Shown in pieces: positions 11,460-22,063 of a DNA stretch of 64,000 nt. Location: the NCBI RefSeq assembly GCF_022808915.1, contig NZ_JAKZFS010000004.1, positions 310,001 to 374,000 on the forward strand, written 5' to 3'. The translations under genes and the position numbers were made by a program. Source of the stretch: Fundidesulfovibrio terrae. GTDB lineage: Bacteria; Desulfobacterota; Desulfovibrionia; Desulfovibrionales; Desulfovibrionaceae. The first letter of the stretch is position 1. Every line of letters starts with the position of its first letter. The notes below the pieces were generated by a model. The model ran no database searches. It had not been told where the DNA came from and saw only the letters and a program-made list of their open reading frames with translations.

Positions 11460-13697
11460 ATGCGGTGGCGTAAACCGGGACTCCAGAAATTCATGCCTGA
11501 AACGCTGCGCGGTCAGGGCGCGCGACGCATGGTCCTGGCCTCCCTGGCCATGCTGCTCGTGGCCAGCCTGGCCGGACAGGCGGCCTACGACGCGGTGCTG
11601 GCCAAGTCGGCCCGCTACGAGGCCAAGACCGTGGAGACCTTCTACGCGGGCAAGCTTCTGGAATGGGATGAGGACTGGCAAAGCCAGGCCGAGCACCAGA
11701 AGGCCCGCCTGGCTTTCCTGGGGCTGGCGGAGAATCCCGCCGCGCGCCGGGAGAGACTTCACGCCTATTACCTCGCGCAGGGCGAGGACCCGAAGTTCAG
11801 CCATGTCTTCCTGATGACGGCCGATGGAACTCCGTTGTTCTGGTACGGCCCAGAAGCCAAGCGCATGGCCGCCCTGACGGCCCGGTCCCCAGGCGCGAAC
11901 TGGCTCCACGACGAATCGTCCGGCCTTCTCTACCGCGTCTACAGCCAGCCTTTCTGGCTCGGGCCCGAGGGCATGGGGCGGATAGTCATGCTGCGCGTGC
12001 TGGACAACGCCCTGCTCTATCAGAACACCTCCACCCGAACCGATCTGCGTCTGGTCTGGCAGGGCCGGGTGGTGGCTTCCTCCCTGCGCTCCACGGACCC
12101 GGACGCACCCGCCGGAGAAGCCAGGCGGGTGGAGGTGGAGCTCCCCTGGCCGGGTGGCGGCTCCCCGGCGCCGGTGCTTCGCCTGTCGCACTACGTGGAC
12201 GCTCCGGTGAGCGGCCTGGAGGTCGCTGCGGCCGTGGCCTGCCTGCTGGCCTTGCAGGCGCTGTGCATCTGGGGGGTGCTTGGGCGCTGGCTGGTGCGCA
12301 TCGCCCGGCGGCTGGCCCTGCTCGGCGGCGCCTCCCGGGAGCAGGCCAGGGGCTGGGCCAGCGGCCGGCCGGCGCCGCTCGACCTGGACGAGGAGATGCT
12401 CGACCGGGATGACGAAATCGCCACGGTGGCCCTGTCGCTCAAAAGCCTGACCCAGGCCGTGGCCCACCACGATGCCCAGCGCCTGGCAGGACAGGAGGAG
12501 CTGGGGCGGCTGCGCAACCTTTTGTCCGAGATCATCGACTCCATGCCATCGGCGCTGATCACCGTGGACCTTCAGGGCCGGATAACCCGGTGCAACCGGC
12601 TGGCGCTGGAATCATCCGGATTCGAGGAGCACGAGGCCGAGGGCATGCGCATCGAGGAGGTCTTTCCCCGGCTCGCGGCCGAACTCGCGCCGCTGCACGA
12701 GGCCATGCGGGGCGGCGTGACCTGGACCGGACACAAGATTCCCCGGCGCGTGGCCGGCGACATCCTGTACGAGGACGTAACCATCTACCCCCTGGCCAAC
12801 AGTCTGGGCGTCGAAGGCGCGGTCATCCGGCTCGACGACGTCACCAAGCGCCACCAGATGGAGCTCATGATGGTCCAGTCGGAAAAGATGCTCTCCGTGG
12901 GCGGGCTGGCCGCGGGCATGGCCCACGAGATCAACAACCCGCTGGGGGGGATCCTCCAGAGCGCCCAGGTCATGCGGCGGCGGATCACGGACGACCTGCC
13001 CCAGAACCTCAGGATGGCCGCCGGGCTGGGCTGCCCCATGGAGACTATCCGGGCTTACATGGAGGGGCGGGGAGTTCTGGACATGCTGGCCGGCATCACG
13101 GAGTCGGCCCAGCGCGCGGCCAAGATCGTGCGTGGAATGCTGGAGTTCAGCCGCAGGGGCGATTCCCCCTTCGAGCCGGTGGACATCCGGGGCATTCTGG
13201 AAAAGGCCCTGGAGCTCTGCTCCAAGGACTACGACTTCACGAAGCACCGCGACTTCAGAAGGATACGGATCGAACGCGACTACGACCCGGACCTGCCCCC
13301 GGTGCCCTGCTCGGCCACCCAGATCGAGCAGGTGGTCATGAACCTCCTGCGCAACGCGGCCCAGGCCATGACGGCCAACCCGGAGCACAGGCCCCCGGCG
13401 ATCATCCTGCGGACCCGGCGGGAGGACGGACAGGCGCTCATCACCGTGGAGGACAACGGCCCCGGCCTTTCCGACGCGGCCCGCAAGCGCATCTTCGAGC
13501 CCTTCTACACCACGAAGCCGCCCGGCATGGGGACCGGCCTCGGGCTGTCGGTGTCCTACTTCATCGTCACCGAAAACCACGGAGGGAGCATGAGCGCGCA
13601 CTCCGAGCCCGGCCGGTGGACCAGGATCAGCGTGCGCCTGCCGCTTGCGGTCAAGGAGCTCCGAGGGGCGGGCGGCCGGGATCCCGGCCCGGGTTAA
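11460..13697 (+). CDS. Membrane sensor histidine kinase with PAS domain
   Basis: 745 residues. TM1 is at about 24-42, a periplasmic sensor at 43-252, TM2 at 253-275, a HAMP-like linker and then a PAS domain at about 350-465. The kinase core follows: H-box M-A-H-E-I-N-N-P-L-G-G with His489, N-box near 628-636, G1 D-N-G-P-G-L at 665-670 and G2 G-T-G-L-G-L-S at 691-697. Between the H-box and the second dimerisation helix there is an unusual insertion of about 40 residues, also seen in the kinase at 43587. It lies directly after the binding-protein gene, so the two probably form one sensing unit. No cognate regulator is adjacent on this transcript. Confidence 0.9.
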   Translation: MRWRKPGLQKFMPETLRGQGARRMVLASLAMLLVASLAGQAAYDAVLAKSARYEAKTVETFYAGKLLEWDEDWQSQAEHQKARLAFLGLAENPAARRERLHAYYLAQGEDPKFSHVFLMTADGTPLFWYGPEAKRMAALTARSPGANWLHDESSGLLYRVYSQPFWLGPEGMGRIVMLRVLDNALLYQNTSTRTDLRLVWQGRVVASSLRSTDPDAPAGEARRVEVELPWPGGGSPAPVLRLSHYVDAPVSGLEVAAAVACLLALQALCIWGVLGRWLVRIARRLALLGGASREQARGWASGRPAPLDLDEEMLDRDDEIATVALSLKSLTQAVAHHDAQRLAGQEELGRLRNLLSEIIDSMPSALITVDLQGRITRCNRLALESSGFEEHEAEGMRIEEVFPRLAAELAPLHEAMRGGVTWTGHKIPRRVAGDILYEDVTIYPLANSLGVEGAVIRLDDVTKRHQMELMMVQSEKMLSVGGLAAGMAHEINNPLGGILQSAQVMRRRITDDLPQNLRMAAGLGCPMETIRAYMEGRGVLDMLAGITESAQRAAKIVRGMLEFSRRGDSPFEPVDIRGILEKALELCSKDYDFTKHRDFRRIRIERDYDPDLPPVPCSATQIEQVVMNLLRNAAQAMTANPEHRPPAIILRTRREDGQALITVEDNGPGLSDAARKRIFEPFYTTKPPGMGTGLGLSVSYFIVTENHGGSMSAHSEPGRWTRISVRLPLAVKELRGAGGRDPGPG

Positions 13698-13783: not shown

Positions 13784-13920
13784 GTCGCTCCCCCCGCGTG
13801 ACGCCGCAGTATCGATAGTCATACGGTGAAGTCGCTTGGAGGCATGCCTCGGGTTACACGCGCCGGGGCGGACGGGCATCTCCGGCGCCGCCGCGCGTGA
13901 CAATCGGCCCGAGGAGCCGT

Positions 13921-15431
13921 ATGCTGGAAGGCAAACGGCTTGAAATTCCGAACATTCCGGGACCGCCCACTATGGCCGAGAAGTCCATCCTCTCCATGCT
14001 GCCCCATCTGACCATACGTCAGAAGGTTCTGGCCGGGACTGTCATCCCGGTGGTCCTCTTTTCCGTTCTGGGAGTGGCCTCCTACAACTACCTGGTGCGC
14101 CTGGAGGCTTCGCTCACCCACATGGAGATGGCCGACGATTTGGCCAACACCATCCTGGAAGTGCGGCGCTATGAGAAGAACTTCCTGCTCTACGCCCACG
14201 ACGAGGACTACGACGAGGCCCAACGGTTCATGGACCTGGCCCGGTCGTCGCTTCGGGCCATGGCCGATCTCTCGCCGCAGCCGCGCGCCCGCAAGATGCT
14301 TGACGAAAGCCTTTCCAAGAACCTGGACGCCTACCAGGAGTTCACCCTGCGCCTGCGCTCCCAGGCCGAGCCGCCGGGTTCCGAGGCCAGCGCCCGGGTG
14401 CGCGATGCCCTGCGCCAGGCGGGCAAGGACATGGTGGACACGTCGCTGGCCATCAAGAACTCCGAGCGTGAGCGCATCCTGCGCCTGGTGTCCTCGCTCA
14501 TGCGCCAGTTGGTGATCACCGGCGTGCTGTTGCTCAGTTTCGGCACGGCCATGGCCATGCTGCTCGGGCGCAAGATCCTGCGCGCCCTGAACACCATCGC
14601 CAATGCCACCGCCGAGATCGGCCAGGGCCGCTTCAAGACCTTGGACGTCCCCCGCACCAACGACGAAACCCAGCGCGTGCTGGAGGCCTTCAACCGCATG
14701 ACCCGCGAACTGGAGCGCCGCCAGGACCAGCTCATCCAAGAGAAGAAGCTCTCCTCGCTTGGCGTCCTCACCTCGGGCATAGCCCACCAGCTCAACAATC
14801 CGCTCAACAACATCTCCACCTCCTGCCAGATCCTCCAAGAGGAGCAGGGCGAGTGCGACCCCGAATTCGCGGCCCGCATGCTCGGCAACATCCAGCAGGA
14901 GGTGCTGCGCGCCCGGGACATCGTGAAGGGCCTGCTGGAGTTCTCCCGGGCCAAGGATTTCAGCCTGAAGCGCGTCTCGCTCGACGAGGTCGCGGCCAAG
15001 GCCTTCCGCCTGGTCTCCAGCCAGGTGCCCTCGGGCATCGCGCTCATCAAGGACATACCCCCGGACCTCGCCCTGGACCTGGACGCAGCCCGCATCCAGG
15101 AGGCCTTCATCAACCTGCTCCTGAACGCCGCCCAGGCCATCCCGGACCCCACCGGCTCCATCACCGTGTCCGCTCGGGTGGACGAGAAGACCCATGAGGC
15201 GGTCATCGCCGTGGAGGACACCGGCACCGGCATCCCCGACGAGGACCTGGGCAAGATATTCGACCCCTTCTACACCACCAAGGAGGTGGGCAAAGGCACG
15301 GGGCTCGGGCTGTCCATCGTGTTCGGCATCATCGAGAAGCACAAGGGCTCCATCATCGCCGAGCGCACCGGCGGCAAGGGCGCGCGCTTCGTCATCCGCC
15401 TGCCCCTGACGCAAGAGCCGGAGGGACCGGC

Positions 15432-15435
<4 letters not shown>
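13921..15435 (+). CDS. Membrane sensor histidine kinase, HAMP type
   Basis: 504 residues. TM1 is at about 38-58, then a helical periplasmic sensor with R-R-Y-E-K-N-F-L-L-Y near residue 82, typical of helical-bundle sensors of chemoreceptor type. TM2 is at about 197-215, with HAMP to residue 268. The H-box is S-G-I-A-H-Q-L-N-N-P-L with His289; the ATP-binding domain has D-T-G-T-G-I-P and G-T-G-L-G-L-S. The ATG at 13921 is preferred over the GTG 24 bases upstream because GAGGAG lies five bases before it. Its stop overlaps the GTG of the NtrC-type regulator gene, so the two are a kinase-regulator pair. Confidence 0.92.
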
Positions 15436-16787
<1,352 letters not shown>

Positions 16788-16793
16788 CGCCCG

Positions 16794-18803
16794 TCACGCC
16801 AGCGCCAGCGGCAGCGCCTCGAACACCGTCTTCACGAACGACACCTCGACGTCCGCAAGGTCCTCCCCGCTCATGGCGTCCACCTCGGGCCGGTTGTCGT
16901 CGGGCAGGATCACCCGCGTGGCCCCGGCGCGGGCAGCCGCCAGAATCTTCTCCCGCACTCCACCCACCGGCAGCACCTGCCCCGTGAGCGTGATCTCGCC
17001 GGTCATGGCCACGTCGCGCCTGAGCGCCTTGCCCGTATAGAGCGAGGCCAGGGCCAGCGCCAGCGTCAGCCCCGCCGAGCTCCCTTCCTTGGGGATGGAA
17101 CCGCCCGGGATGTGCACGTGCAGGTCCTCCTGCTGGAACGCCCCGGGATCGATCCCGAGCTCCCCGGCCCGCGAGCGCACGAGGCTCAAGGCCGTGCGGG
17201 CCGACTCGCACAGCACCTCTCCCAGCGACCCGGTCAGGGTGATGTTGCCCGCCCCCTGCATGCGGATGGCCTCCACGAAAATGATCTCCCCGCCGAACCC
17301 GGCATACACGAGCCCCGTGGCCACGCCCACGCGCGGCTCGCCCTCGGCGGCTTCGCGGATGTGCTTGCGCGGGCCGAGCAGGGCCGGGATCATGGCCGCG
17401 TCCACCTCGATGGGGGCGGCGGGCTGTCCGCCCTCGAGCCGCAGCCGGGCAAGCTTGCGGCAGGCCTGGCCCAGTTCCCGGTCCAGGTTCCTGACGCCGG
17501 CCTCGCGCGTGTAGCCGTCCACCACCGTCGCCAGGGCCTCGGGAGTGAAGCTGGGGAAGGGGTGGGTCAGGCCGTGCTCCTTGAGCTGGCGCGGCAGCAG
17601 GTGGCGCGCGGCGATGTTGACCTTTTCGCGCGCCGTGTAGCCCTGGAAGGGCACCATCTCCAGGCGGTCGGCCAGGGGGCCGGACAGCTCGCGCACGTCG
17701 TTGACCGTGGCGATGAACAGCACCTGGGAGAGGTCGAAGGGCACCTCCAGGTAGTTGTCCACGAATTGCGAGTTCTGCTCCGGGTCGAGCATTTCCAGGA
17801 ACACCGCCGCCGGGTCGCCCCGGAAGTCCTTGCCGATCTTGTCCAGCTCGTCGAGCATGAACACCGGGTTGCGCACGCCCAGGCGGCTTATGGACTGCAT
17901 CACCCGTCCCGGCAGGGCCCCGACATAGGTGCGCCGGTGGCCGCGCAACTCGGCCTCGTCGCGCAGGCCCGCCAGGGACATGCGGTGGAACTTGCGGCCC
18001 AAAGCCTCGGCGATGGCCTGTCCTACCGAGGTCTTGCCCGTGCCCGGAGGGCCGGAGAAGCACAGCACGGGGCTGCGGAACGCCGTGGGCGGGGCCTTGT
18101 CGCGCATGAGCCGGGCCACGGTGGCCCTGAGCTCGTCCAGGTTCACCGGCTTGGCCAGGTAGTAGGCCGCGCCCTGGCGCATGGCCTGCACGGCCGTGTC
18201 CACCGTGGCGAAGCCCGTGACCATCATCACCTGGGTGGCCGGGGAGAGCTTGCGGGCCTCCTCCAGGAGCTGCATGCCGTCCATCTTCTCCATCTTGAGG
18301 TCGGTGACGATGAGGTCGAACTCCCAGCGCCGCACCTCCTCCAGGGCGGCCAGGCCGTTGGCCGCGCCGCGCACCCGGTAGCCTTCCTTCTTCAGCACGT
18401 GCTCCAGGTTGGCCCGGGCGATGTCCTCGTCGTCCACCACCAGGATGTGGAAATCGGAGGACGCCCGGAGCGCCCGCGAGGCCAGATATTCGAGCACCCG
18501 CTCCTTCACCTGCCCCAGGCCGTAGTGGCGGCCCGAGAGCACCTCTTCGGCGCGCGCAAGGTCCAGGCGGTCTTGGGTGGCGGCGTTCCAGGGCAGGCCC
18601 AGCAGGAAGTCCAGATAGCCCAGGCCCACGGAATACTCGGCCACGGACGGGTCGGTCTTGGCCAGGCGCTCGAGTTCGCGCAGGGCGGCCTCCCTGGCGT
18701 GGGGCGGCAGGTCCGGGGCGTTGGCCCGGCCCGTAAGTTCCGCCAGGTCGCTGGTGGGCGGTTCGGGCGTTTTCCGGTCGGTGCGCTTCTGGAAGAAGAT
18801 CAT
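16794..18803 (-). CDS. Lon-type ATP-dependent protease with an internal receiver domain
   Basis: 669 residues. Residues 60-112 match the segment just upstream of the Lon ATPase (L-P-W-N, H-Y-G-L-G-Q-V-K-E-R-V-L-E-Y-L). A complete receiver then follows at about 118-236, with D123/D124/D125 region acids, phosphoacceptor D168 and Lys218. The Lon ATPase resumes at P-V-L-C-F-S-G-P-P-G-T-G-K-T (Walker A 251-258; Walker B D318/E319). The protease domain has P-K-E-G-S-S-A-G with catalytic Ser576 and Lys619. The large N-terminal substrate-binding LON domain is absent. GGAGGAG precedes the ATG. The stop is seven bases from the convergent NtrC-type regulator. Phosphorylation may gate proteolysis (inference). 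Confidence 0.92.
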   Translation of the reverse strand: MIFFQKRTDRKTPEPPTSDLAELTGRANAPDLPPHAREAALRELERLAKTDPSVAEYSVGLGYLDFLLGLPWNAATQDRLDLARAEEVLSGRHYGLGQVKERVLEYLASRALRASSDFHILVVDDEDIARANLEHVLKKEGYRVRGAANGLAALEEVRRWEFDLIVTDLKMEKMDGMQLLEEARKLSPATQVMMVTGFATVDTAVQAMRQGAAYYLAKPVNLDELRATVARLMRDKAPPTAFRSPVLCFSGPPGTGKTSVGQAIAEALGRKFHRMSLAGLRDEAELRGHRRTYVGALPGRVMQSISRLGVRNPVFMLDELDKIGKDFRGDPAAVFLEMLDPEQNSQFVDNYLEVPFDLSQVLFIATVNDVRELSGPLADRLEMVPFQGYTAREKVNIAARHLLPRQLKEHGLTHPFPSFTPEALATVVDGYTREAGVRNLDRELGQACRKLARLRLEGGQPAAPIEVDAAMIPALLGPRKHIREAAEGEPRVGVATGLVYAGFGGEIIFVEAIRMQGAGNITLTGSLGEVLCESARTALSLVRSRAGELGIDPGAFQQEDLHVHIPGGSIPKEGSSAGLTLALALASLYTGKALRRDVAMTGEITLTGQVLPVGGVREKILAAARAGATRVILPDDNRPEVDAMSGEDLADVEVSFVKTVFEALPLALA

Positions 18804-18874
18804 GGGCTCCTCCGCTGGTTTCCCGGCACGCTACGTCCTTTCTCCCCTTCCCTGCAACAGCCAGTCGCACGAGT

Positions 18875-18952
18875 GTTTCGAAACGCAACAGCTGTTGTGA
18901 TGTGCAACACACGAACCATCGTCCTGGAGGGCGAAGTGTTGCAACCCGCAAC
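18875..18952. promoter_or_regulatory. Cluster of palindromes, likely enhancer sites for the NtrC-type regulator
   Basis: Three symmetric sites lie between the Lon-like gene and the divergent operon: GTTTCGAAAC (18875-18884), CAACAGCTGTTG (18886-18897) and GTTGC-5-GCAAC (18938-18952). They sit about 55-130 bases upstream of a sigma-54 promoter, which is the usual range for activator binding. The shared GCAAC/GTTGC half-sites suggest one binding protein. Confidence 0.5.
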
Positions 18953-19004
18953 GAAAGAATTTTTCGAGGGTTTGGCAGTGTGAATAATTTCAACATGTTA
19001 TCTG

Positions 19005-19056: not shown

Positions 19057-19224
19057 ATGGCAACCATCAAAGAACGCATCGAGGCAGTGTTCGCCGCCCA
19101 GGCATTCGCCGAGCGGAACCTGGACCAGGAAGCCCTGGAGATCCTGGGCGAGGCCCGGTCCGAGACCAAGACCGTGGCCGTGGCGGGCAAGCGTACCGAC
19201 ACCCGTCCGAGGCTCCGGGCCTAG
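19057..19224 (+). CDS. Small conserved-looking protein, first gene of the sigma-54 operon
   Basis: Fifty-five residues, mostly helical and charged, with a basic end (K-R-T-D-T-R-P-R-L-R-A). A strong GAGGAGG ribosome-binding site precedes the ATG by eight bases, and the next gene starts eight bases after its stop. The sequence shows no membrane segment or signal peptide. I do not recognise a family. Confidence 0.7.
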   Translation: MATIKERIEAVFAAQAFAERNLDQEALEILGEARSETKTVAVAGKRTDTRPRLRA

Positions 19225-19232
19225 GGAAGCAC

Positions 19233-19769
19233 ATGGCCGCACGTATGCGCCAAAAGCCGGAAGACGGATTCCGCCTCAAGCGGCCCAGCCGCCTCAGGGA
19301 ATTCCTTGAGGATGTGGGACAGGCCGCGGCCCTGGCGGAATCCGGTTTTTCCGGCAAGGACCTGGGTGTGTCCGCCCCGGGAGTCGAGAACAAGAAGATC
19401 GTGGTGGTGTCCACCGACGCCGAATTCTCGCCCGCCCTTGTGCGCCACGCCCTGAGCGTGGCCGGCAGGCTCGGCACCGAAGTGGTGGCCCTGAGCATCG
19501 GCAGCCTGGCTCCGGCCGGGGACGATCATGCCCGGAAGGCGCGCGAGCTCTTCGAGATGCGCGCGCTCCGTTCCGGAGAGAATTTCAGCCTCCAGGCCAG
19601 CCAGGCCGGTGTGTCGTTCAGGCACGTGGTGCGCTTCGGCAAGGCGGCGGAGGTGGTCGAGGGCGAGTGCGGGCGTCTGCGCAGAGTGGAGTTCGTGCTG
19701 GCGTGCAAGGAGCAGCGGGGCAGGGACGGCCTGCATGTGAGCATGCCCCTGTTCGAGGTGGTGGGGTAA
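19233..19769 (+). CDS. Universal-stress-protein-like protein
   Basis: 178 residues. After a basic N-terminal region of about 50 residues comes K-K-I-V-V-V-S-T-D-A-E-F-S-P-A-L-V-R-H-A, the first strand and helix pattern of a UspA-like alpha/beta fold. The nucleotide-binding G-x2-G-x9-G-S/T motif of typical Usp proteins is not visible, so it may be a non-ATP-binding member. GGGAAG lies upstream of the ATG. It is the second gene of the operon that ends with a double-domain Usp protein. Confidence 0.6.
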   Translation: MAARMRQKPEDGFRLKRPSRLREFLEDVGQAAALAESGFSGKDLGVSAPGVENKKIVVVSTDAEFSPALVRHALSVAGRLGTEVVALSIGSLAPAGDDHARKARELFEMRALRSGENFSLQASQAGVSFRHVVRFGKAAEVVEGECGRLRRVEFVLACKEQRGRDGLHVSMPLFEVVG

Positions 19770-19823: not shown

Positions 19824-20123
19824 ATGGAAGCCAGGAAGAGCAAACCCATAGGCAAGCTCGTCGCGTACGGAATCGGCAGCGTCGGCCTCTACACCGCCGT
19901 GTACCTCTGCCAGGACCTGATCATGGACAACTTCGCCAAGGGCGGCCTCTACACGGCCCTGCCCATCGCCACCGTGTTCCTGTTCTCCTGGATTCACGGC
20001 ACGTTCGCGGGCACGCTCTGGCAGGTGCTCGGCATCGACGCCGTGAAGAAGGCCCCGGCCCAGGCTACGGTTTCGGCCCCCGCCCGCAAGGACTCCCGTC
20101 CCCGCGCCACCGTCAGCGCCTAA
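19824..20123 (+). CDS. Small membrane protein with two spans
   Basis: Ninety-nine residues with two hydrophobic segments (about 11-33 and 42-68) and a hydrophilic tail in which A-T-V-S-A occurs twice. TAGGAGA lies before the ATG. It is placed immediately before the TauE/SafE-type permease gene (28-base gap), so it may be an accessory subunit of that transporter. No family is recognised. Confidence 0.7.
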   Translation: MEARKSKPIGKLVAYGIGSVGLYTAVYLCQDLIMDNFAKGGLYTALPIATVFLFSWIHGTFAGTLWQVLGIDAVKKAPAQATVSAPARKDSRPRATVSA

Positions 20124-20151: not shown

Positions 20152-21207
20152 ATGGATATGCTCAGCGAAGCCACCAAGTTCATCACCCTCGATCCCGCCG
20201 GGATCGGGTTTCTGTTCATTGTGGGATTCATCGGCGGCCTGGTCAGCGGGTTCATCGGGTCCGGCGGCGCCTTCGTGCTCACCCCCGGCATGATGAGCCT
20301 GGGCGTTCCCGGCACCGTGGCCGTGGCCAGCAACATGTGCCACAAGTTCCCCAAGGCCCTGGTCGGGTCCATCAAGCGCTACCGCTACGGCCAGGTGGAC
20401 ATCAAGCTGGGCCTGTACATGGCCGCCTTCGCGGGCGTCGGCGTGCAGGTGGGCATCAAGATACAGAACTACATCCTGGGATTGTGGGGCCAGGCCGGTT
20501 CCGACCTGTACGTGAGCGTGTCCTTCGTGGCCGTGCTGGTCATCGTGGGCGGGTTCGTCATGCTGGACGCGATCAAGTCCTCCAAGAATTCCTGCGCCAC
20601 CGAGCAGACCTGCTCCCTGGCCCTTCGCCTGCAGAAGATCGAGCTGTGGCCCATGATCAACTTTAAAAGGGCCAACCTGCGCATCTCCATGTGGTTCCTG
20701 CTGCCCGTGGGCTTCGCCACCGGCCTGCTGGCCGCCACCATCGCCGTGGGCGGCTTCATCGGCGTGCCCGGCATGATCTACATCCTGGGCGCTTCCGGCC
20801 TGGTGGCCTCGGCCACCGAGCTGGTCATCGCCTTCGTCATGGGCCTGGCCGGGTCCATCAACTGGGCCATGCACGGCATGGTGGACATCCGCCTCACCCT
20901 GATCATCCTGGCCGGTTCGCTTCTGGGCGTGCAGCTCGGCGCCATCGGCACCACCTTCGTGCGCGAACACATGATCAAGGTCGTCATGGGCACCATCATG
21001 CTGATCGTCGCCGTGTCGCGCGGATTCGCCATGCCCAAGTACCTGGCCAAGCTCGGCCTCATGGAAGTCAGTGACTCCACCGTGGCCATCCTGGAAAAGG
21101 CGAGCTTCGCCTTCATGGTGGTCTCTCTGGTGGTGGGCGCGGTGATCATCCTGGGCAGCATGGTCAAGGGCCGCAAGGCATTGGCTCCCCAGGGGCAGGA
21201 GGCGTAA
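20152..21207 (+). CDS. TauE/SafE-family membrane permease
   Basis: 351 residues with about eight to nine membrane helices. It carries the family's repeated G-G-L-V-S-G-F-I-G-S-G-G-A-F (residues 28-42) and a matching second-half A-T-I-A-V-G-G-F-I-G-V-P-G-M stretch near 200. Family members export sulfite, sulfoacetate or other organosulfur anions, or move small anions in sulfur metabolism. The substrate here is not determined. A cysteine-containing loop of about 25 residues lies between the two halves. It belongs to the sigma-54 operon, between a small membrane protein and a Usp gene. Confidence 0.85.
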   Translation: MDMLSEATKFITLDPAGIGFLFIVGFIGGLVSGFIGSGGAFVLTPGMMSLGVPGTVAVASNMCHKFPKALVGSIKRYRYGQVDIKLGLYMAAFAGVGVQVGIKIQNYILGLWGQAGSDLYVSVSFVAVLVIVGGFVMLDAIKSSKNSCATEQTCSLALRLQKIELWPMINFKRANLRISMWFLLPVGFATGLLAATIAVGGFIGVPGMIYILGASGLVASATELVIAFVMGLAGSINWAMHGMVDIRLTLIILAGSLLGVQLGAIGTTFVREHMIKVVMGTIMLIVAVSRGFAMPKYLAKLGLMEVSDSTVAILEKASFAFMVVSLVVGAVIILGSMVKGRKALAPQGQEA

Positions 21208-21211
21208 GCAA

Positions 21212-22063
21212 ATGCCGCTCAAGCGCCTCCTGGTCTGCGTGGACGAGTCCGACGCCAGCCGCCACGCCTTGAACGCGGCCCTGGACCTGGCCGGGACGCA
21301 TGGGGCCTCCCTCACGGCGGTGGCCGTGGCCCCGCCCTACCAGGGTGACCTGAGGCTCGTGGGCATAAGCGACATCGCAAGCGTGCTCAGGCAGCCCTGC
21401 GACAAGGCTCTGCAATTCGCCAAAGGGGAGGCCGCCAAGCGCGGCCTCCCCCTGGCCACCCTCTGCGAGGAGGGCGAACCCGCCCAGGTCATCGCGGACC
21501 TGGCGGACTCCATGCGGGCGAGCCTGGTGGTGATGGGGCGGCGAAACACCTCCACCATGGGCAAGCTCCTGCTGGGCAGCGTCACGGGCCGGACCATCGG
21601 CTTCTGCAACTGCGACGTGCTCATCGTGCCCACCGGCGCGGCGGTGAACCTGCGCAGGCTGGTGCTGGCCACCGACGGCTCCCGCTTCTCGGCGGCGGCC
21701 GCGGACAAGGCCCTGGCTTTGGGCCGCGAGCTCGATTCGCTGGTCGAGGTGGTCTCGGTCATGGACGTGCCCAACGAATATCTGGCCCTGGCCCCCAGGG
21801 CTGCCACTGAGCTGGCCGCCGCCACCAAGGGCTTCATCAACGAAGTGCTGGACAAGGCCAAGGCCATGGGCGTCGCCGCCAAGGGCAAGCTCCTGGAAGG
21901 CAACGCCCCCGAGGAGATCCTCAAGTTCGCGGAGGAGGGCGGCACCGGCACCATCGTCATCGCGTCCCACGGGCGCACCGGGCTTCGCCGCCTGCTCATG
22001 GGCGGCGTGGTGGAGTGGATCGTGGCCCACTCTAGCCTGCCGATCTGGATCACCAAGGGATAG
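21212..22063 (+). CDS. Tandem universal stress protein (two UspA domains)
   Basis: 283 residues made of two UspA folds (about 1-143 and 145-283). The first has M-G-R-R-N-T-S-T-M-G-K-L-L-L-G-S, and the second S-H-G-R-T-G-L-R-R-L-L-M-G-G-V. Both approximate the ATP-binding G-x2-G-x9-G-S motif. GGAGG, inside the end of the permease gene, serves as the ribosome-binding site, and the ATG lies four bases past that stop. It is the last gene of the sigma-54 operon; a strong terminator follows. Confidence 0.9.
   Translation: MPLKRLLVCVDESDASRHALNAALDLAGTHGASLTAVAVAPPYQGDLRLVGISDIASVLRQPCDKALQFAKGEAAKRGLPLATLCEEGEPAQVIADLADSMRASLVVMGRRNTSTMGKLLLGSVTGRTIGFCNCDVLIVPTGAAVNLRRLVLATDGSRFSAAAADKALALGRELDSLVEVVSVMDVPNEYLALAPRAATELAAATKGFINEVLDKAKAMGVAAKGKLLEGNAPEEILKFAEEGGTGTIVIASHGRTGLRRLLMGGVVEWIVAHSSLPIWITKG

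Follow-up and report, generated by a model that had tools for sequence, protein, structure and literature searches.

A response-regulator receiver inserted in a Lon-type protease of Fundidesulfovibrio terrae and its conserved two-component neighbourhood

As far as is known, bacteria mostly steer AAA+ proteases via separate adaptors, and RssB and CpdR are separate receiver adaptors of this kind, acting on ClpXP. Besides ordinary Lon (LonA), two further forms of the protease are LonB, which is membrane-anchored and has a transmembrane insert in the AAA+ domain, and LonC, which has no working ATPase. A receiver and a Lon protease joined in one protein were described in 2011 for DVU3303 of Desulfovibrio vulgaris, a response regulator containing Lon protease in a 'three-component system' (PMC3333781). 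The published passages of that work propose that phosphorylation may be required for the protease activity of DVU3303, and they name the own operon and the divergent genes as targets of DVU3305; the same targets are given in PMC4641369. DVU3305 orthologs were reported in some Desulfovibrio, Thermodesulfovibrio, Thioalkalivibrio and Dechloromonas, mostly adjoining an ortholog of the receiver-Lon protein, with the DVU3305 binding site conserved beside it (PMC3333781). In the relevant passages of a 2023 study (PMC10102598) the genes DVU3303-3305 share their fitness patterns, with cofitness >0.9; under chlorate the loss of these signalling genes helps and the loss of the transporter DVU3299 hurts. 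No biochemical study of a protein of this type was found in the open-licence literature.

The protein analysed here, a Lon-type protease with a response-regulator receiver (RR-Lon), is encoded on the minus strand at 16794..18803 of the 64,000-nucleotide stretch of F. terrae DNA that was examined (the window) and comprises 669 amino acids. DVU3303, as far as the published passages describe it, and RR-Lon are clearly of the same kind, a kinship resting on architecture and neighbourhood: both combine receiver and Lon in one chain and are encoded beside a histidine kinase, a sigma54 regulator and Usp-type and transporter genes. The arrangement differs, since the three D. vulgaris genes are listed as one unit, whereas the regulator genes of F. 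terrae are convergent with RR-Lon. RssB and CpdR resemble RR-Lon in that a two-component signal steers proteolysis, but they are separate adaptors of another protease, while the receiver of RR-Lon lies within the protease chain. The fusion, its association with a regulator and the conserved site are already published (PMC3333781); added here, relative to the published passages, are the site at which the receiver is inserted, both trees, the counts of conserved residues, the comparison of receiver helix alpha1, the N-terminal tag and the hairpin.

Domain architecture and point of insertion

The initial annotation, which proposed a complete receiver inside a Lon protease and suggested a domain search and a structure model, gave the coordinates 16794-18803 correctly and omitted the minus strand. 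The domain search returned four Pfam matches, all well over their cut-offs: Response_reg at residues 120-229 (E 9.9e-30), AAA at 247-384 (1.9e-20) and, in the C-terminal part, Lon_lid at 408-459 (5.6e-18) and Lon_C at 467-668 (1e-68). With 613.9 bits on NCBIfam TIGR00763 (cut-off 608.05) RR-Lon would be labelled by NCBIfam as plain 'endopeptidase La'; on the LonB family TIGR00764 it reaches 85.6, where the cut-off is 516.6. In the AlphaFold2 model (36-row alignment, mean pLDDT 81.3, pTM 0.69) the receiver region adopts the full receiver fold, with five strands and five helices (119-236), between a helix at 97-114 and a strand at 246-250. The whole model was grouped by Foldseek with Lon proteases, e.g. 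6u5z_A (TM 0.90 by target length).

The receiver domain (residues 117-236, 18096..18455, minus strand) contains the conserved D124, D125, D168, T196 and K218, with D168 (codon 18300..18302, minus strand) as the expected phospho-acceptor. It is followed by the AAA+ core and lid (242-460, 17424..18080, minus strand) and by the Lon peptidase domain (467-668, 16800..17405, minus strand), whose dyad is formed by S576 (17076-17078) and K619 (16947-16949). D168, K218, the P-loop starting at 251, S576 and K619 were all found at the positions given in the initial annotation.

Alignment with the two full-length ordinary Lon proteins (L002, L003) that the genome encodes besides RR-Lon, together with the helices of the model, identified residues 19-114 (18462..18749, minus strand) as a helical segment retained from ordinary Lon, so the proposed match of the stretch before the receiver to the part of ordinary Lon that runs on to the Walker A strand was borne out. 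In comparison with these two proteins, the order in RR-Lon is the helical segment, then the receiver, then the strand leading into Walker A. In ordinary Lon of this and other genomes, the stretches equivalent to RR-Lon ~17-113 and ~242-668 directly adjoin, which indicates that ~128 residues were inserted at a single point. RR-Lon shares with LonA the AAA+ core, the lid, the Ser-Lys peptidase domain and the pre-core helical segment; LonA has the N-domain and no receiver, and in RR-Lon the reverse is the case.

The substrate-binding LON N-domain is indeed missing: its family gave no Pfam match in RR-Lon at E up to 5 and the region is absent from the alignment. The receiver does not stand in its place, as the initial annotation had supposed. 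The N-domain is missing at the N-terminus, and the intervening helical segment rules out that the receiver occupies its site. Where ordinary Lon has its N-terminal part, RR-Lon has a short tag and a linker, both of low model confidence. The tag, found by pattern search, comprises residues 1-8 (18780..18803, minus strand) and is M-x-F-F-x-K-like; the pattern M-x0-3-[FIL]F-x0-1-[KR] is present in 67 of 78 RR-Lon proteins and a near variant in 6 of the remaining 11.

Since the N-domain that selects substrates in ordinary Lon is missing, something else must select them in RR-Lon. The receiver could be a built-in adaptor, with phosphorylation altering which substrates are passed to an always-active ring, by analogy with RssB and CpdR for ClpXP. 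The hairpin-bearing proteins encoded alongside RR-Lon (see below) would be candidate clients of such an adaptor. They are candidates only, however, and the insertion beside the Walker A strand, seen in alignment and model, suggests coupling to the ATPase instead, so this explanation is considered rather unlikely.

Spread, descent and conservation

Similar genes were expected from the initial annotation in other Desulfovibrio; they are present there and spread wider. The architecture was found in 49 of 119 family genomes, the own genome included (E 1e-165). At the same threshold 49 of 395 genomes of the phylum sample match, one of which (G123) covers only residues 242-653, leaving 48, and in the Nitrospirae, the phylum of locus L045, matches occur in 25 of 198 genomes. 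Among plasmids 56 records match RR-Lon at E 1e-100, none of them covering 80 % of the query. Recurrence across genomes, together with the codon-position pattern described below, rules out chance, a recent patchwork or an assembly artefact.

The comparisons below use 81 further loci, counted without the window itself (L001), the near-duplicates L029, L057 and L207, and L065 with its broken reading frame. The set of 78 proteins includes that of the window, with the cut or disrupted L059, L061, L062 and L066 additionally removed; the start codons of relatives were chosen by script as those nearest to the start in the window. The 46-row sets used for the receiver tree and the upstream regions still contain near-duplicates.

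In a tree of the Lon core, made by a quick method with the receiver excluded, 35 RR-Lon rows (34 of the 77 other RR-Lon rows were taken in) and 35 ordinary rows, namely the two from this genome and those first found by the query, were split on one branch with SH-aLRT 100. RR-Lon is a single group distinct from ordinary Lon and occurs in two genome groups. A second tree, built from 97 receivers, has the 46 from RR-Lon by themselves on one side of a branch (SH-aLRT 88), inside a cluster (SH-aLRT 97) whose remaining members are 32 neighbouring sigma54 regulators and 6 other rows. As RR-Lon stands on one side of a branch in both trees, several independent fusions are not favoured, and the simplest history would be a single capture of the receiver from the lineage of the partner regulator, although the donor is uncertain because few columns support the receiver tree.

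All three sets of functional residues are conserved among the 78 proteins. In the receiver, D168 and K218 are present in 78, and D124, D125 and T196 in 77 (one S in place of T196). The peptidase residues H562, S576 and K619 are found in 78 and H564 in 77. The ATPase residues K257 of Walker A, D318 and R380 were retained in 78, and E319, N368 and R438 in 77, so that RR-Lon differs from LonC in its intact ATPase. A receiver inside a Lon motor, retained in two genome groups along with its phosphorylation and catalytic residues, offers a compact example in which direct control of proteolysis by a two-component signal can be tested.

Could the receiver be an idle remnant, or an insert with a structural role alone, and Lon activity be independent of it? 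This is highly improbable, as the phosphorylation residues were retained in 77-78 of 78 proteins down to ~48 % identity. Among three near relatives the receiver differs by 0.06-0.10 at codon positions 1 and 2 in comparison to 0.19-0.36 at third positions, and third positions diverge far more than first and second ones in every RR-Lon domain. The receiver length is also steady at 126 residues in a 28-row alignment. Only three columns of the Lon core separate RR-Lon from ordinary Lon (255, 278 and 613), too few to place a contact with the receiver. In one genus (g38; L186-L189 = G100, G066, G085, G112) the RR-Lon open frames encode 764-827 amino acids, with additional residues around the junction of the lid and peptidase domains.

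Partner regulator, kinase and divergent promoter

A sigma54 response regulator (15432..16787, plus strand; Pfam Response_reg, Sigma54_activat and HTH_8) converges with RR-Lon, the stop ends of the two genes lying 6 bases apart. Like RR-Lon, such NtrC-type activators combine a receiver and an AAA+ core in one chain, and the receiver of this neighbour, 53 % identical to that of RR-Lon, is the nearest among the receivers of this genome. The output of RR-Lon is proteolysis, in contrast, and Pfam gave neither a sigma54-interaction nor a Fis-type DNA-binding domain in it. Next to the regulator lies the gene of a histidine kinase with HAMP (13897..15435, plus strand; Pfam), the presumed shared kinase.

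Helix alpha1 of a receiver helps determine which kinase docks. Alpha1 of the RR-Lon receiver resembles that of the neighbouring regulators, with the common pattern D-E-x-I-A-R-x-N-L-x-H-[VI]-L-x-K-E-G-Y. Identity over residues 126-140 averaged 0.58 for receivers of the same locus (30 pairs), 0.55 for unpaired ones (870) and 0.25 against 19 other receivers (570); beyond alpha1 the corresponding values were 0.47, 0.46 and 0.37. The common alpha1 suggests that one kinase probably drives both RR-Lon and the sigma54 regulator, which predicts transcription and proteolysis driven together. Pairwise tuning of the two receivers within a locus gave no clear signal, and the near lack of a same-locus excess indicates that alpha1 is conserved system-wide and not tuned pair by pair.

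Among 60 partner kinases scoring >=85 the residue after the phospho-His is Gln in place of Glu in those with HQLN (42) and HQVN (1), the rest having HE; the Gln possibly means altered catalysis. Upstream of the partner kinase gene, and in the same orientation, lies the gene of a second histidine kinase (PAS, 745 aa; 11460-13697 of the window). Matches to the phospho-acceptor region of this kinase in other loci are weak (<=40 bits among the matches listed), and it seems to be outside the conserved set.

The neighbourhood is conserved. By thresholds set by the authors, and with many loci ending early, a sigma54 regulator was found within 8 kb of RR-Lon in 61 of the 81 loci, a like kinase in 63 and both in 59; TauE permeases and relatives of a 99-residue protein were each found in 48 and Usp-like proteins in 49. 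None of these five was present within 8 kb in 34 ordinary-Lon loci. No regulator was found within 8 kb in 20 of the 81 loci, some of them because of contig ends, and of the 59 loci that extend >=5.5 kb to the left and >=3.5 kb to the right, a regulator is present in 51. Taking the last one found where a locus has more than one, the regulator is downstream and on the opposite strand in 24 loci, downstream and in the same orientation as RR-Lon in 16, and upstream in 21; its link with RR-Lon is therefore independent of any one operon.

On the other side of RR-Lon a divergent set on the plus strand starts with the gene of a 55-residue protein (19057..19224) discussed in the next section. It continues with a Usp-like protein of 178 residues (19233..19769; Pfam Usp E 6.6e-5, 23.9 bits, cut-off 24), the 99-residue protein (19824..20123; no Pfam match, membrane location presumed from sequence), a TauE/SafE permease (20152..21207; Pfam TauE) and a universal stress protein with two Usp stretches (21212..22063; Pfam Usp).

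The divergent gap of 253 bases contains, within 80 bases, three copies of the palindrome TGTTGC-N5-GCAACA with one mismatch each (18874-18890, 18893-18909 and 18937-18953), the presumed regulator sites. The genome has four one-mismatch sites in total, including these three; up to two mismatches there are 67 sites in comparison to 37 for a reversed control pattern, and three-mismatch sites in the whole window are fewer than by chance (13 vs 23). Related palindromes were found in 25 of 46 RR-Lon upstream regions, with 36 sites versus 0.58 in shuffles (overlapping forms being counted twice in both). As the pattern was derived from the window, 38 further RR-Lon loci provide a fairer test: 10 of them carry palindromes, with 20 sites versus 0.28 in shuffles. 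None was found in 34 ordinary-Lon upstream regions. The palindrome is perhaps the site published in 2011 for DVU3305 (PMC3333781). A sigma54 promoter above chance was not found, the window having 13 loose matches versus 31 expected.

The position of these sites within RR-Lon's own upstream region would close a loop if RR-Lon were a brake which, once activated, ends the response by breaking down the sigma54 regulator or further proteins made in it, and the kindred receivers could pair. A brake should oppose the response, yet disruptions of the three D. vulgaris genes act in the same way, with the cofitness reported in the passages of PMC10102598. Polarity could mask an opposition, because the three genes are one listed unit and their cofitness may come from polar effects. 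A brake is considered distinctly unlikely.

The favoured explanation, in which confidence is moderate, is a two-component system with two branches, in which one kinase feeds both a sigma54 activator and, as the proteolytic output, the receiver-gated protease RR-Lon. The membrane kinase (13897-15435) would phosphorylate the two kindred receivers, and the sigma54 activator, acting through the palindromes, would induce RR-Lon together with the divergent genes for stress proteins and permease. Phosphorylation of D168 could alter the packing of the receiver on the AAA+ ring and license ring assembly or ATP-driven unfolding. The phosphorylated receiver, adjoining the nucleotide-binding core, may favour the active ring, and activation is thought likelier than inhibition. 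With the housekeeping N-domain lost, RR-Lon would act on a narrow set of substrates.

This branched arrangement is argued for by the joint retention of the receiver residues and the Ser-Lys dyad (D168, K218, S576 and K619 in 78 of 78), by the regulator and kinase together in 59 of 81 loci in comparison to 0 of 34, and by the receiver kinship in the tree (SH-aLRT 88 within 97), the alpha1 likeness and the palindromes. The targets of DVU3305 and the DVU3303-3305 cofitness, as given in the published passages, point in the same direction. Counted against it were the absent pairwise tuning, the polar effects that may underlie the cofitness, the 20 loci without a regulator and the lack of a sigma54 promoter above chance, and the fitness signs in the passages of PMC10102598 do not fit simple activation of DVU3299. 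The earlier suggestion of phosphorylation acting within the ATPase input region is a plausible one; the conservation of D168 and the common kinase-recognition helix agree with it.

A hairpin linked to RR-Lon

The core of the 55-residue protein (profile E 7.5e-11 in its own genome) is a 33-residue FAE hairpin with the consensus SIREKLEQAMAAIAFAEAGEPDTAREILEEERR. The pattern A-x-x-F-A-E-A-G-E...A is common to a number of small proteins, Usp-like proteins and tails of single-receiver proteins, as seen in the window (19057-19224) and in L041, L043, L044, L046, L048, L211, L219 and L223. With a profile built from RR-Lon loci (E 1e-4), 94 copies were detected, distributed over 49 of the 81 RR-Lon loci, and none in 34 ordinary-Lon loci. 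Two of these matches (L024, L048) appear to be frames open by chance, and the hairpin alignment was made without their peptides. With the copy of the window included, 44 of 95 copies belong to proteins 50-74 residues long and 40 to proteins 125-199 residues long, near the N-terminus (lengths counted from the closest Met upstream). Among the longer proteins, some match the Usp-like protein of the window, which itself has a mere trace of the hairpin. Pfam gave weak TPR-like matches (best 0.0065, 6 of 48 members) and no family that fits well, and a PDB search with the hairpin gave nothing convincing.

Hairpin and RR-Lon occur together in 35 genomes of the family sample; 14 have RR-Lon alone, 12 the hairpin alone and 58 neither. 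In the phylum sample the corresponding numbers are 29, 19, 22 and 325. The co-occurrence has Fisher p values, which ignore kinship, of 3e-9 (family) and 7e-18 (phylum). By comparison of the two match lists, 33 of the 35 family genomes with both have a hairpin copy no more than 5 kb away from RR-Lon. The hairpin is linked to RR-Lon and is not confined to RR-Lon genomes, since in the phylum sample an RR-Lon match is lacking from 22 of the 51 genomes with a hairpin.

The hairpin-bearing small proteins beside RR-Lon provide concrete candidate substrates or adaptors. A speculative and very doubtful idea is that the hairpin serves this signalling system as a docking tag or degron of its own. Its carriers, namely small proteins, stress-type proteins and single-domain receivers, would be recruited to RR-Lon upon receiver phosphorylation, and to other partners where RR-Lon is absent. 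If true, the hairpin and RR-Lon would constitute a phosphorylation-timed tag-and-degrade system from one locus.

No palindrome was found beside hairpin genes distant from RR-Lon in six loci examined. Among 13 loci examined with the hairpin distant from RR-Lon, it forms the tail of a single-receiver protein in 12, and 3 of these 12 also have a small double-hairpin protein. The genome of the window itself encodes a single-receiver protein that ends in an FAE-type hairpin (L211; G000:C1, near 1447613).
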